This document shows, piece by piece, positions 3,001 to 52,688 of a stretch of DNA of 64,000 nt. The DNA comes from an uncultured Oscillospiraceae bacterium (lineage in GTDB: Bacteria; Bacillota; Clostridia; Oscillospirales; Oscillospiraceae). The stretch's first letter is position 1. The number at the start of each line of letters is the position of its first letter. The notes below the pieces were generated by a model. It was not told the DNA's origin and searched no databases. It saw nothing but the letters and a program-made list of their open reading frames with translations. Where the stretch lies: assembly GCA_947629795.1 (NCBI GenBank), contig CANRFC010000001.1, positions 141,369 to 205,368 of the forward strand. The letters are read 5' to 3'. The position numbers and the translations under genes are program-made.

Positions 3001-6000
3001 CGGTGAGGTAGTTGTCCACATCGGCGGCGTCCCGGCGGGGATCGATGAGCTTGCCGTCGTTGCCGTTGGCATCCACGGTGCCCTTGGCGGTGTAGCCGGT
3101 GGCGGCGGTGAGCACCGGGTTGGGGAAGCGCTTGGCCCGGGTGCTGTAATCGCCCAGCTGTCCGTAGGTGTTGTCGCCCCAGGCCCAGACGGTGCCGTCG
3201 GAGCGCAGGACGGTGCTGGTGCCCCGGGAGTTGGAGGTGCCCGCGGCGGCGATGGAAATGACGTTGTTGAGCCACTCGCCCTCGCCCACGCTGCCGCCCT
3301 CGCGGACGAACTGCGGGGTCAGGGTGTGGCTGACGCCGCTGACGTTGTCACCGGCCTGGCCGTTGCTGGTATTGCCCCAGGCCAGGACGGTGCCGTCCTT
3401 CAGCAGGGCCAGGGAGTGGTCGTAGCCGGCGGAAATGGCCACCACGCCGGTGAGGTAGCGCACGCCGTCACCGTCCACGGTGCCGTCGGCCTTCTTGGCA
3501 TCCTCGTTCACATGGCGCTCGCCCATGCTGTCCACGGTGTACCAGTAGGGGCTGGTGCCGGCCTGGACCCGGATGGGATAGCGGGTCTTGGTGGTGGTGC
3601 CGTTGCCCAGCTGGCCCTGGGAGTTGTAGCCCCAGGCGTAGACGTCGCCGTCGGCAGTAAGGGCCAGCACATGGCCGCCCGCGCCGTTGGTCTCGGCGTA
3701 GGAGCTGTTGACGGACAGGGAGATGATGGGCCGGTTGGTGGCGGTGCCGCCCTTGGCGCTCTTGGTGGTGATGTCGCCCAGCAGGCCGATGCCGTTGATG
3801 CCCACCACCTGAGTGGGAGTCTTGATGACGGTAGAGGTCACATCCACCTCTTCCTCCTCCACCTGGGCCCGGGCGGTGACGCTGGCGTTGGGGAACAGGC
3901 CGGAGGCGGTCACATCGGCCACCTGGTCGGCGGCGGTGTAGACCTGGGTGATGGGCGTGCCGGCAAAGGCCGACACCGGGATGGCGTTGGCGGTCACATC
4001 GGCAGTCTTCACATTGTAGTTCACCGAGCTCAGGCTCTTCACATCGGCCAGAGCGCCCCGGCGGATGGTCCGGATGCTCTCGGGAATGGTCAGAGTGGTG
4101 AGCTTGGCGTCCCGGAAGGAGGTAGCGATCCCCTCGGTGCCGTCCACGTCAAAGTCCACAGCCACCACGGGCAGAGAGGGATATCCGCCCAGAGCGCTGA
4201 CGGCGGCGGCATCCAGCACGCTGCTGTAAGAGCTCTCGGTCAGGGTCTCGGGCAGGGTGATCTCGGTATCGGTGAGGCCGTCGCCCCGGACGCCGATGAT
4301 CACCGGCAGGCCGGGATAAGGCGTGCCGTCGTTTTCGATGGCAGCCTTGATGGCGGTATAGAAGGCGGCGTCAGCCAGGGCGGGCGCCTCCTGATCCAGG
4401 AGGGTCTTCAGGGCGGCGTAGGTGGTCTCCACGTCATTCTGCAGGGAGTTGAAGGGGTTGTTCTCCTTGATCGGCGTGCTGTCCACACCGCTCTGGGCGC
4501 TGCGGAGCTCGGAGCCCTCGGCCATCAGCTCGTCCACGGCCGTCATGGCGGTAATGGCGGAGGCATACATGTTCATGTCGCTCTCCACAAGCGTCATAAA
4601 GTCAGCCCGCACGGTATCGGTGGCGGTGCCATCCGCAACAGTCACGGGGTCAAGCGCCGCCCAAGCGGTGTCCAGCGCATTTTCGGCAGCGGTGCGGTCA
4701 CTGAGATAGGCGCTGAGGTTGGTGTTCACCTCCATAAGGTTGCTGGCGGTGACACTGGCGCCGGTGACGGAGCTGACCTTGTTGTACAGGCCGTCGCAGA
4801 TGGCGGCACGCCGCTCCAGCGCCGCGGAGAGGGCCTGGAGGGCATCGGCCATTTCGGTCAGGCCATAGGTGTTCATGGTGGTGATGGCCACATCCACGGT
4901 GTTCCTGGCCGCAGTGGTCTGGATCCGCAGCGCGGTCACCGCGTCCAGATAAGCCAGCCGGGCGCTCTCCCAGTCGGCCTCATCCATCTTCTGACGGGCG
5001 CTGTTGTAGTTGCCCCGGGCGGTCTCCACCTGTCCGGAGAGGTTGTCCACCACGCCCTGATTCATCTCGATGAGCTCGGAAAGGTAGTTGTCGGCTTCGG
5101 TCTCGGCGGGGTAGAACTTCCAGATGAAGTTCTCGGCGGCAGTGGCCTGCTCGCCCTCGGTGTACTCCACGCCCTCGCCGTTGAGGCCCAGGTTCTCGTT
5201 CGTGTTGTCGCCCCAGGCCCACACGGTGCCGTTGCGCTTCACGGCGTAGGAGGTGTTGATGCCGCTGAAGACCATGGCGTTGGTGACGATGGGGTCGGAG
5301 TCGTCGTTGAGGCCCTCGGGATACACGGTGACAGTGAAGCTGCCCCAGTAGCCGTTGACCTTATCCACCACCACGATGGTGGCGGTGCCGTAGCGGTCGC
5401 CCTCGTGCCAGAGCTTGATGCCGGTGGACTTGCCGTCCTCCAGCACCCGCTCAGCCTTGACAATGCTCTCGTCGCTGGAGAAGGCGTAGAAGCGGTCGGC
5501 GTAGTCGGCCTGGGTCTCCGTGGCCTGGTCAGCCTCCTCGCTCCACCAATTCTCGGCGGTGCGGCGGGTCACATCCCAGTGGAGGTTGTAGCCCTTATAG
5601 CTCTCCTCCACGATGCTCTTGGTGTCCACAATGGCCACCTGGCCGTGGGTGAGCTGGAGGTTGACGGGCATGCGCTCGTTCTGATAGGTATAGCCAGTCA
5701 GGTCCTCGAGCTGCTCGGGAGCGTAGTAGATGGCCTGGCCCCGGGTGGCGTTGACAGCGGCGTTGGAGCTGTCCACGGTGGCCTGGGTGTTCAGATTGTC
5801 GTTGGGGAAGTTGTCCTTTACAAAGACGCTCTTTTCGATCTTGGCCGTGGTGATCTGGAGCAGGTTGGCGCTGCGGGCGCCCACCAGCATGGGCAGAGTC
5901 ACCCGGTTGCCGTTGGAGTCGTTGCTGCCGGCGGTGTCGCCCAGGGAGACGTTGCCCACCTCGCCGGAGCCGTTGTAGCCCCAGCCGTAGAGGTAGCCGT

Positions 6001-43012: not shown

Positions 43013-43177
43013 TGTCTGTGCCGTCGATACTCCCAATATCAAAAGCCATGTGCGTTGCAAATGATGAGATCACATATCAGCGCAAATACCCCGTTTTTGA
43101 GCGTAAAAACGCAAATGTCAGCCGCGATAAATTGCCTCCGATGCTTATGGTAAGCAGCGGAGGCCTTTTGGCCTTGA

Positions 43178-43206
43178 TTGACGAAATTAGACAGTAGCTG
43201 TATAAT
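43178..43206 (+). promoter_or_regulatory. Consensus sigma70 promoter directly outside the IS605 right end
   Basis: TTGACG - 17 bp - TATAAT, ~30 bp from the predicted IS edge, pointing toward it. Confidence 0.8.
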
Positions 43207-43233
43207 CTGAAATATGGCGGTAAATGGAAATGG

Positions 43234-43420
43234 GTTGACACTCCCCACGGCTAAAGCCGGGGGATTCTCGGTTCAGCGACCATTGCCTTCACCATGAGAG
43301 GTCTTACGCGGTCTCCCCGAGCGTTTGGTTCGGGCGTGTCCCGCCCTACCACATGGACTGGCTACACCAACAGGCGCAGCCCTTCGTTCAGAATGTTCTT
43401 CGCGGCGTTGATATCCCTGT
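43234..43420 (-). ncRNA. Candidate omega RNA (TnpB guide RNA) at the tnpB 3' end and IS right end; extent approximate
   Basis: Positional inference from IS605/TnpB biology; right-end hairpin at ~43242-43264. Confidence 0.45.
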
Positions 43421-44486
43421 CGTGGACGACCCCGCAGCTTGGGCAGGTCCACTCCCGGACGGAGAGGTCTTTGGTTCCGGGCCACTGAGTGCCGCAAGCA
43501 GAGCAAAGCTGACTGGACGGGAAAAATCGGTCAACAGTGACTACCTGTTTCCCGTACCATTCCGCCTTGTATTCCAACTGCCTGCGGAACTCGCCCCAGC
43601 TTGCATCAGAGATAGACCTTGCCAGCTTGCGGTTCTCCACCATTCTCTTGGGGGCCAAGTCCTCAATGCAGATGATATCGTTTTCCCGCACCAACTTTGT
43701 GGACAACTTGTGAAGCATATCTGCCCTCTGGTTTGCGATGTGCTCATGGAGACGGGCTACCTGGATCCTCGCCTTCTCCCGGCGATGGCTCCCCTTTGTT
43801 TTTCGGGAGAGCTGCCGCTGGAGCCTTGCGAGCTTCTTCTGGCTTTTGGACAGATACTTGTGGTTGGGGTACTCCGTTCCGTCGGAGGCAACGGCAAACG
43901 CCTTCAAACCCAAATCAAGACCAACTACTTCTCCGGTAGAGGGCAGAGGCTCCATCTCAACGTCGGTGCAGCATAGAGCGACAAAATATTTTCCGCTGGG
44001 ATTCTGACTGACCGTCGCGGATAGGATACGGCCCCTCACTTCCTTGCTGATTCTGCACTTCACAAGGCCGAGTTTGGGAAGTTGAACCGCTTTATCCAAC
44101 GCTTTGATATTCGTGCCAACGCACTTGCTCTTGTAGCTCTTTCGGTGGTCGCGCTTGCTCTTGAACCGTGGATAACCGGGTTTTCCGCCCTGTTTCACCC
44201 GCCGGAAAAAGTTTTGATAGGCGGTATCCAGCGTTTGCAAAGACGCTTGCAGAGAAGTGGCGTCCACCTCTTTCAGCCATTCCAATTCTCTCTTGAGAAG
44301 TGTCAGCTCCTTGTCCTGCTGAAACCGTGTAGGGGCTTTCCCGGTTTCTTTGTACATCTCCATCCGCTGCGCGAGAAAATGATCAAACACAAACCGGCAG
44401 CAACCGAAGGTCCGTTGGATCAAATTTTCTTGCCTTTGAGTTGGATATATCCGAAATTTGTAGCTGTATTCCATGTTTATCCTCAC
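43362..44486 (-). CDS. tnpB: RNA-guided endonuclease TnpB (IS605 OrfB)
   Basis: 374 aa; Ruv[19 protein letters not shown], Ruv[15 protein letters not shown], zinc ribbon [10 protein letters not shown]...WTCPSCG, Ruv[16 protein letters not shown] all present. Confidence 0.95.
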
Positions 44487-44875
44487 ACATTTTTTTGGTC
44501 CTCAATATATTGCTTGATGACAGACAGAGGAGCGCCGCCGACTGTGGAGACAAAATATGCGTTTGTCCACAGAGAGGGGAGTCTGGAGCGCAGCCATCCA
44601 AATTCCTGGCGCAATATCCGAGATGTGCGGCCTTTTATTCGCTTGACGGCCTTGTGTACGCCAAACTGAGGGTCTACTTCCATCAGCAGATGCACATGGT
44701 CTGGCATGATTTCCATCTCAATGACTTCAATTCGATATTCGGCGCAAATTTCCTTTATCAATGCTTTCAGCCGAATATCTACGCCATTGTCCAAGACCTT
44801 TCGGCGGTATTTTGGGCACCAGACCACGTGATATTTGCAGGAGTACACCACATTATGATTGCTTTTGTATTCCAT
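44483..44875 (-). CDS. tnpA: IS200/IS605 Y1 transposase TnpA
   Basis: [28 protein letters not shown]...[13 protein letters not shown] (HUH)...VIKQYIEDQ (candidate catalytic Tyr). ORF track extends to 44899; start at 44875 preferred. Confidence 0.93.
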
Positions 44876-45000
44876 GCAAAAGATTATACTACTCAACAAA
44901 AACTAATGCAACCCTGTAGTCCCTATACGGGAAAATAAGGTGTGGCTTATATCCCCATGCCTAAAGGTAGGGGCTTCACGCCACGTTTGGTAAAGAGACA

Positions 45001-45783
45001 ATGCCAGTCAACAAGAACACACTGAAAGCGGAGCTATCCGCAAATGGCAACCGCGTTTGCCAAGATATACAGGCCGTCGCATCGGAGCTGAGTACCACAC
45101 TTACGGATACGGAGACTCTTGTCGGCACTTGCGTCAACCGGCAGGCGATCCCGTTTATCCTGTGGAATGATTTTTTCAATGTGGCTGGTACACTCTCTCC
45201 CAAAAGCGGGAAGCAACAGTACCGTTATAAATGGGGTGATAAGGTCTTTGTGGATTTTGGCTGTGCCAACATTCAGACGGAAATTTCTTTCCCCCATCCG
45301 GCCATCGTGCTTTATAATTTCTCCAATACGGTCATTATCGCGCCGACTACCTCAGACGATAATCCGTCTTTCTCTGCCGATATTGAATCGGTGGTTATCA
45401 AGGCGGACAAGGATGGGAAGATATTCCCGAAAGATACGGTCATCAACCTCCACCAAATCAAGGCCGTACATAAAGAGCGCATCATCAGCAACCTGAAATG
45501 CAATGTACGCGATTACACTGTCAGCCCTGCCGAGATTCAGCGGCTGAACAACATCGCGCAAAGGCCGGTATTTGCCAACGGAATTGACCTTATGGCCTGT
45601 ATTCGCATCAAGCTGGCGTCGATGTTCGCAGCGTCGTATGTCCAGGGATTGATTACAGCGGCCGAGACAGCAAAGGAGACGGTCAAGGCACAGGCGGAGC
45701 AGCTTGTGGAGAAAGACGCTGAGATTGCCCGACTAAAAGTTGAGTTGGACGCGCTCACAAGAAAGCAGGATAACAACGGTTAA
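45001..45783 (+). CDS. PemK/MazF-like protein with N- and C-terminal helical extensions
   Basis: Core RYKWGDKVFVDFGCANIQTEISFPHPAIVLYNFSNTVIIAPTTSDD...DTVINLHQIKAVHKERI resembles PemK/MazF; C-terminus is a heptad-rich helix (AAETAKETVKAQAEQLVEKDAEIARLKVELDAL). Confidence 0.75.
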   Translation: MPVNKNTLKAELSANGNRVCQDIQAVASELSTTLTDTETLVGTCVNRQAIPFILWNDFFNVAGTLSPKSGKQQYRYKWGDKVFVDFGCANIQTEISFPHPAIVLYNFSNTVIIAPTTSDDNPSFSADIESVVIKADKDGKIFPKDTVINLHQIKAVHKERIISNLKCNVRDYTVSPAEIQRLNNIAQRPVFANGIDLMACIRIKLASMFAASYVQGLITAAETAKETVKAQAEQLVEKDAEIARLKVELDALTRKQDNNG

Positions 45784-45815
45784 TTTCTGCATATACTAAC
45801 ATAGGCAAATTGAAC

Positions 45816-45844
45816 TTGACACTGCATGGGAAATTTGCTATACT
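45816..45844 (+). promoter_or_regulatory. Consensus promoter of an orphan small RNA
   Basis: TTGACA - 17 bp - TATACT. Confidence 0.75.
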
Positions 45845-45850
45845 TTAAGC

Positions 45851-45955
45851 AGATGCCGAAAGGCTCTATCTTGTCAGCTCGAAAGAGTGAGACATTTAAC
45901 TTTTTGCTTAAAGTGCGGATGGGGATTGTGAAAGCAATCCCCATCCATCTTTTTT
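45851..45955 (+). ncRNA. Unassigned small structured RNA
   Basis: Starts after a consensus promoter; contains GCC-GAAA-GGC and CTC-GAAA-GAG GNRA-capped hairpins; ends in a perfect 12-bp terminator stem (45917-45928/45935-45946) plus T6; no ORF or RBS. Confidence 0.65.
45917..45955 (+). terminator. Strong Rho-independent terminator
   Basis: GGATGGGGATTG-TGAAAG-CAATCCCCATCC followed by ATCTTTTTT. Confidence 0.92.
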
Positions 45956-52016: not shown

Positions 52017-52045
52017 TTGACACACCGCTCAGTCTCGGATATAAT
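52017..52045 (+). promoter_or_regulatory. Consensus promoter of the ToxIN-like locus
   Basis: TTGACA - 17 bp - TATAAT. Confidence 0.85.
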
Positions 52046-52051
52046 ATGGGT

Positions 52052-52194
52052 GTGGGTGTATCTCAGCCCTAAATGAGAAACTTATTGAGCGGGCTTCTCT
52101 TGGCCCTTAAGCAAGAAAGTTACAAGTGAGTGTTTCGCCACTCCAAGTGCGAGCGTAACAGCGGGGGCAGGGCTACCTTGCCCCCGTTGTTTTT
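52052..52194 (+). ncRNA. toxI: ToxI-like type III antitoxin RNA (putative)
   Basis: Lies between a consensus promoter and an attenuator hairpin just upstream of the toxN-like gene; two degenerate ~37-41 nt repeats (TCTC..GCCCT.AA...AGAAA.TTA....GAG) and a unit GAGTGTTTCGCCACTCCAAGTGCGAGC. Confidence 0.7.
52162..52194 (+). terminator. Attenuator-type terminator between antitoxin RNA and toxin
   Basis: CGGGGGCA-GGGCTACCT-TGCCCCCG + TTGTTTTT, 15 bp before the toxin ATG. Confidence 0.85.
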
Positions 52195-52208
52195 ATGAGG
52201 AGACAGAT

Positions 52209-52688
52209 ATGGACAATATCAAGCTTTATGAGATAGCGCCTGCCTATATAGAATACCTTGCACCCCATGCCCCTCATCTGTTTCGAAATAAGCAGGCGGG
52301 TCAGCATAATGAACGAAAGTATATTGGTGTTGTGTTAACGGTCAATGATATGAATTATTTTGCTCCTCTCTCTTCTTTTAAGGAAAAACACCACCGGATG
52401 CAGGAGGGGCTTGACTTCATTAAAATCAAAAACTACGCAGTTATCAATCTTAACAATATGTTTCCTGTTCCCGCTGGGCAATACAATTATGTGGACATAT
52501 CCAAGGAGCGGAATCCAAAGTATAAGTCCCTGCTCTTGGCAGAATACCGTTACATCAAGTCCATCCAAGAGAAAATCAGGAAGAACGCTGCAGTCCTTTA
52601 TCGGCTTAAGGTCAAGGGACCTGCTTCTCCTTTGACCAAGCGATGCAACGATTTTGCGTCATTGGAAGTTCTCTGTAAACAGTACTGA
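52209..52688 (+). CDS. toxN: ToxN/AbiQ family type III toxin (endoribonuclease)
   Basis: MDNIKLYEIAPAYIEYLAPHAPHLFRNK...RKYIGVVLTVNDMNYFAPLSSFKEKHHRMQEGLDFIKI..YAVINLNNMFPVPAGQY matches the ToxN/AbiQ family pattern; RBS GAGGAGACAG. Confidence 0.88.
   Translation: MDNIKLYEIAPAYIEYLAPHAPHLFRNKQAGQHNERKYIGVVLTVNDMNYFAPLSSFKEKHHRMQEGLDFIKIKNYAVINLNNMFPVPAGQYNYVDISKERNPKYKSLLLAEYRYIKSIQEKIRKNAAVLYRLKVKGPASPLTKRCNDFASLEVLCKQY

Follow-up and report, generated by a model that had tools for sequence, protein, structure and literature searches.

A divergent PemK gene with a separately promoted RNA

The window, the whole 64,000-nt stretch of DNA analysed here, carries a plus-strand gene for a long PemK-like protein (45001–45783, 260 aa), present in one copy in the source genome, which is that of a gut bacterium. 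Its product matches PF02452 (PemK_toxin) over residues 79–166 at 5.2e-9 (5e-9 rounded), with a score of 36.7 bits against a cut-off of 23.1, and this PemK/MazF domain lies between an N-terminal helical region and a C-terminal coiled coil; PF13958, which covers ToxN/CptN/TenpN-type toxins, gives no match to this protein. Alignments position H99-P100 where MazF has R-P, and PTTSDD at residues 115–120. The catalytic Arg position of MazF is His in all ten aligned family members, while L113, a locus found later than that ten-member alignment, keeps the Arg; the active-site Thr/Ser of MazF is retained in nearly all members. By sequence, the ORF is a divergent member of the PemK family. An AlphaFold model built from a three-sequence alignment (pLDDT 40) was too poor to use.

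No antitoxin-like ORF adjoins the gene, in agreement with the earlier note: its neighbours are IS200/IS605 tnpA and tnpB on the 5′ side and an unrelated minus-strand ORF on the 3′ side. MazE/PemI-type antitoxin genes are likewise missing next to the gene in the window and in three related loci described below (L003, L004 and L048). A constant protein partner is absent, the annotated plasmid and phage loci of the wider family showing only repressors or HTH genes.

The neighbouring feature is instead an RNA gene, and the independently promoted, strongly terminated RNA of about 105 nt that the earlier note placed downstream of the ORF was recovered in that form. Its promoter (TTGACA-17-TATACT, 45816–45844, plus strand; −35 box 45816–45821, 17-nt spacer, −10 box 45839–45844) starts 33 bp after the pemK stop codon and is conserved in L003, L004 and L048. 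The structured RNA (45851–45955, plus strand; recognized by its fold and by a covariance model, R1) has its 5′ end placed 7 nt past the −10 box, near 45851, and finishes in an intrinsic terminator with a 13-bp stem and T run (45917–45955, plus strand; from sequence and fold). Including the terminator, the fold has a minimum free energy of −43.7 kcal/mol (z −6.7), and the core without the terminator a z of about −2.4. A closing helix of this fold, UUUAAGC/GCUUAAA, overlaps the −10 box and probably lies outside the transcript, because transcription starts past that box.

The conserved core, CUAUCUUGUCAGCUCGAAAGAGUGAGACA (45866–45894, plus strand, from four loci), consists of an unpaired CUAUMUU and the hairpin GUC-AG-CUC-GAAA-GAG-UGA-GAC. 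Two GNRA-capped hairpins had been described for this RNA; the second, GAAA-capped one (45872–45894) is conserved, and the first is missing in L004 and L048. The AAAGTGCGG stretch before the terminator is not kept in L048. The window RNA has no Rfam match at the gathering cut-off and nothing credible at E≤10, no pseudoknot was found in it and its repeats are not clear against shuffles (p 0.5).

In this genome the native toxin promoter has been cut off from its gene. Promoter and leader (43174–43235, plus strand; TTGACG 43178–43183, 17 nt, TATAAT 43201–43206) are identified by a 64-nt match to the stretch directly upstream of the intact L003 gene. An IS200/IS605 element, which lies outside the module (43236–44986, minus strand, ends approximate), separates them from the ORF; NCBIfam models identify its tnpB (43362–44486, minus strand, IS200_TnpB) and tnpA (44483–44899, minus strand, transpos_IS200), and its flanks match consecutive parts of L003. 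The insertion point falls between the pemK leader and the ribosome-binding site, just upstream of the latter, and the RNA promoter is intact. Expression of the toxin in the window is probably weak or absent, unless a promoter within the element drives it.

Gene and RNA are inherited together

The same RNA lies directly 3′ of the gene in four of four close relatives (the window, L003, L004 and L048), whose surroundings are unrelated. L003, from an Oscillospiraceae metagenome-assembled genome and the only close relative found among genome contigs, encodes a protein with 76% amino acid identity to that of the window; identity is 56% for L004 (genome G119, same family) and 46% for L048, a prophage on an IMG/VR contig, where the gene sits downstream of a phage tail-type gene. 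Similarity between the window and L003 spans exactly the stretch from pemK promoter to RNA terminator, with flanks that score like shuffled sequence; by this comparison gene and RNA travel together and are inherited as a single transferable unit.

Across the four loci, whose proteins are 46–76% identical, the core sequence CUAUMUUGUCAGC(U)CGAAAG(A)GUGAGAC hardly varies. It is better conserved than the protein, unpaired bases included, a pattern expected of an RNA that binds a protein. The L048 hairpin has one pair fewer and another pair altered on both sides, and so remains a hairpin; with n=4 sequences, formal covariation is thin.

R1 matches L003, L004/L035 and L048, three that were used in building it, as well as a remnant at L034. 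Across 295 genomes of the order, R1 finds intact copies of the RNA in just two, G000 and G119, each of which also has the gene, and no intact RNA gene stands without a toxin gene; G552, a genome without pemK, has one degraded core fragment. At that place (L034, 100–600) a ToxN pseudogene is followed directly by the degraded core. Two weaker R1 candidates, L058 and L059, were judged chance matches (inside a xerC-like gene and before a zinc-ribbon gene). BLAST with the RNA against plasmids and phages gave no matches, nor did the hairpin pattern in a scan of viral contigs; exact-pattern matches there to the 3′ core of the RNA were taken as chance, the remainder of the RNA being absent. The co-conservation across genomes that the earlier note named as a check is borne out by these loci and by the covariance model, and an RNA widespread without the gene, or one belonging to an existing Rfam family, was not encountered. 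These comparisons support the reading of gene and RNA as one module.

Relation to type III and other systems

A complete CptIN-type type III locus (promoter, ToxI, terminator and ToxN) lies at 52017–52688 of the same window; its ToxN matches PF13958 at 1.7e-45 and is assigned to AbiQ by PADLOC. The window ToxI has degenerate pseudoknot-like repeats, an architecture repeated in L040–L042, where the stems GGGC/GCCC, GAGC/GCUC and GAAC/GUUC covary by eye.

The PemK–RNA module resembles ToxIN, CptIN and TenpIN in combining a Kid/MazF-like ribonuclease fold with a structured, terminated RNA on mobile elements, and ToxN/CptN, themselves similar to Kid in structure, are inhibited by structured RNAs (PMC4627078, PMC8860590). 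The toxins differ in family, PF13958 (ToxN/AbiQ) against PF02452, and hhalign between the PemK-like protein and the window ToxN gives a probability of 0.2%, that is, no profile similarity. Type III RNAs lie upstream of the toxin in one operon under one promoter, with a read-through terminator, whereas the RNA here is downstream under its own promoter, a gene order opposite to that in the reviewed systems (PMC5086642). The window RNA also differs from type III antitoxins in being a single hairpin unit with no pseudoknot found; tandem RNA repeats, a type III feature, occur within the PemK family in L063, L064 and the L124 type and are not significant in the window.

Two likenesses drawn by the earlier note do not survive this comparison. 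The AAAGTGCGG stretch had been likened to CCAAGTGCGAG of ToxI, a superficial resemblance given that ToxI relatives differ there and that R1 matches the ToxI of none of 11 ToxN loci at E≤5; and the layout of the ToxI locus 6 kb away, called analogous, has the reverse order, with ToxI upstream of toxN. CptI-type ToxI was considered as a homologue of the RNA on the strength of a suggestive pairwise likeness (a 14-nt match to L042) and set aside when the covariance model gave no support. Judged by toxin family, gene order and RNA homology, the module is not a member of ToxIN/CptIN; we think it probable that it works like them.

A functional analogue is AbiF/RCd22 of Clostridioides difficile (RF03085), a phage-borne protein with an adjacent, terminated RNA of about 100–130 nt; RCd22 has two hairpin motifs and is described as an antitoxin, and it differs in accompanying an Abi_2 protein instead of PemK and in lying upstream, co-transcribed with the gene (PMC12373285). 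Another RNA structure tied to PemK genes in Clostridia is the pemK RNA motif (RF02913), which is classed as cis-regulatory and lies upstream, whereas the window RNA is downstream. RF02913 matches occur elsewhere in the source genome and in G119 and G943, and at four loci with a PemK gene the motif is upstream, within the leader of canonical short MazF/EndoA genes (L068, L069, L070 and L074 in G119, G000 and G943, with several copies per genome), possibly another relationship between an RNA and PemK. The window RNA was rejected as a member, giving no match to a covariance model that does match bona fide members in the same genome.

With type II MazEF/PemIK the module shares the PemK/MazF fold of its toxin; it differs in the lack of a MazE/PemI antitoxin gene in the window, in the long N- and C-terminal extensions and in H-P for R-P. 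The window protein matches phrog_1412 at 2e-6 and the L048 protein does so at 8e-8. This family is labelled ‘antitoxin mazE-like’ (moron) in PHROGs, with the protein called an antitoxin and no RNA described, and the Streptococcus phage proteins so annotated have the same layout as the module. The proteins bearing this label match PemK-type toxins, and the label may be wrong.

Long PemK-like genes of Firmicutes mobile elements

Distant long PemK-like proteins (20–34% identity) were found, and at several of their loci a promoter and a terminator after the stop codon were seen by eye, after which a mechanical test was written. It asks for a promoter that matches the consensus at 9 or more of 12 bases and has a spacing of 16–18, at −40 to +150 of the stop, and for an intrinsic terminator that gives an RNA of 55–170 nt. 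The first tally, in which eight of ten family members passed, was partly post hoc, and the test was left unchanged afterwards; six of the seven loci examined once it was frozen also pass (L113 and five Streptococcus phage loci, with L101 failing). Of 242 gene ends scored across the same set of six genomes, 4 pass, three of them family members, which leaves 1 of 239 others; the rate is 1 of 94 for other gene ends in two of the Streptococcus phages and 0 of 17 for the canonical short MazF genes scored. Overall, 14 of 17 family loci (all but L005, L065 and L101) pass against 2 of 333 other gene ends from six bacterial genomes and two phages, the 14 including several near-identical loci that reduce to eight distinct RNA types.

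Passing loci lie on a Desulfosporosinus plasmid, in other Firmicutes genomes, in Streptococcus prophages and in a satellite phage. In the plasmid annotation the gene stands alone and is called a type II PemK/MazF toxin. Phage copies directly precede a gene for an integrase or a resolvase and usually follow one for a CI-like repressor, and the Streptococcus phage loci carry no annotated antitoxin. Two of these phages show a second promoter–RNA–terminator unit 3′ of the PemK moron and before the integrase (L126, about 3330–3460; L128, about 3270–3400). Queries with L062 and L063 against viral contigs found no matches.

The window RNA model finds no significant match at the distant bacterial loci, whose RNAs therefore share no detectable sequence with it but have the design in common. 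The stop codon falls within TTGACA in L048, L063 and L113. In L063 the promoter with that stop codon in its −35 box is TTGACA-17-TATAAT, and the RNA carries UGAGCCGAAGGGCAAA twice. The L064 RNA forms the hairpins GGGCUAGUUGCCC and GGACUAGUUGUCC, and the L124 type, from pneumococcal prophages and the satellite phage, has GGAG-UUUA-GCUCC-AUAA and GGAU-UUUA-GAUCC-AUAA. These tandem hairpin repeats are significant in L063, L064 and the L124 type (shuffle p<0.005), with stems that vary on both sides (GGAG/CUCC to GGAU/AUCC); repeats are not significant against shuffles in the window, L049, L062, L113 and L126.

A candidate protein–RNA toxin–antitoxin module

We propose that the module is probably a type III-like toxin–antitoxin system in which the toxin has the PemK fold and the downstream RNA, transcribed separately, is the antitoxin, toxicity and binding being predicted. 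The long PemK-like protein would be an endoribonuclease toxin, and the short structured RNA, made in excess from its own promoter just downstream, would bind it directly and block it. Should transcription of the RNA stop, for example when a phage infects the cell or the element is lost, the RNA, being unstable, would disappear and the toxin would act. The module may serve to defend against phages or to maintain the element. Counted against this reading are the thin covariation, a window RNA with no clear repeats or pseudoknot, the gene order opposite to type III, the catalytic Arg that is mostly His and the three failing loci.

Several other roles for the RNA were weighed. As a small separate transcript beside the gene it might base-pair with the toxin mRNA and block translation, as in type I systems, and pairing with the start region does beat most shuffles in the window (6.5% are as strong) and in L004 (3%). 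Pairing in L003 and L048 is no better than in shuffles, however, the best sites differ in place from mRNA to mRNA, and gene and RNA share one strand, so that the RNA is not antisense; we regard this reading as unlikely. We would say much the same of an RNA that serves the PemK-like protein as cofactor, guide or activator instead of inhibiting it. The co-inheritance data are compatible with any protein–RNA partnership, but the MazF-fold ribonucleases established so far need, to our knowledge, no RNA cofactor. ToxI and CptI, the RNAs known to partner this fold, both act as inhibitors (PMC4627078, PMC8860590).

That an independent regulatory RNA of mobile elements merely travels beside the gene is suggested by the insertion element that adjoins the window gene and by the other copies on a prophage contig, phages, a satellite phage and a plasmid; it is made improbable by RNAs of unrelated sequence that fill the same place after members of the PemK-like family and after almost no other genes, and by the lack of an intact copy without the gene in the 295 genomes. 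A small antitoxin peptide encoded by the RNA is more doubtful again. The frame ILSAR(K/T)SE(T/A)(F/L)NF does run over the core in the window, L003, L004 and the L034 remnant, yet in L048 a two-base deletion that leaves the hairpin in place runs the frame into a stop (ILSAER*), L004 offers no ATG, GTG or TTG start ahead of the ILSAR stretch, and no peptide is common to the unrelated RNAs of other members. The orphan ToxI-like decoy for ToxN raised by the earlier note draws on the ToxN gene 6 kb away, the degraded core after the G552 ToxN pseudogene and the 14-nt exact match to one CptI-type ToxI; with the module present in G119 where there is no ToxN, with R1 matching no ToxI at E≤5 and with no profile similarity between the two toxins, we consider it highly improbable. 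An RNA that binds the protein is favoured because the two are co-inherited, unpaired bases are conserved and there is no constant protein partner, and because pairing with the mRNA is not conserved and the shared peptide frame is broken in L048.

More broadly, we lean towards the view that the long PemK-like proteins of Firmicutes mobile elements represent a widespread and undescribed class of protein–RNA toxin–antitoxin or abortive-infection systems, in which separately promoted downstream RNA antitoxins are of many mutually unrelated kinds. No description of the gene-plus-downstream-RNA arrangement was found in the literature (open-licence papers), and the type III systems reviewed to date comprise three families with one toxin type and the RNA upstream. 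If the proposal is right, a PemK/MazF-family toxin controlled by an RNA encoded downstream would constitute a new branch, and RNA control of the MazF/Kid fold would extend beyond the ToxN family, having arisen anew or being ancestral. It would also account for the antitoxin that long PemK genes on plasmids, mobile elements and prophages seem to lack, supply a candidate module for phage defence beside the integrases of Streptococcus prophages and make it possible to ask directly how one fold switches between protein and RNA antitoxins.

Elsewhere in the window, the only Rfam match is an ssnA RNA motif (RF03031, 60156–60185, minus strand), and a giant ORF of 8036 aa (16838–40948, minus strand) contains many RCC1-like repeats (W.WG.N..GQLG) together with other repeated stretches.
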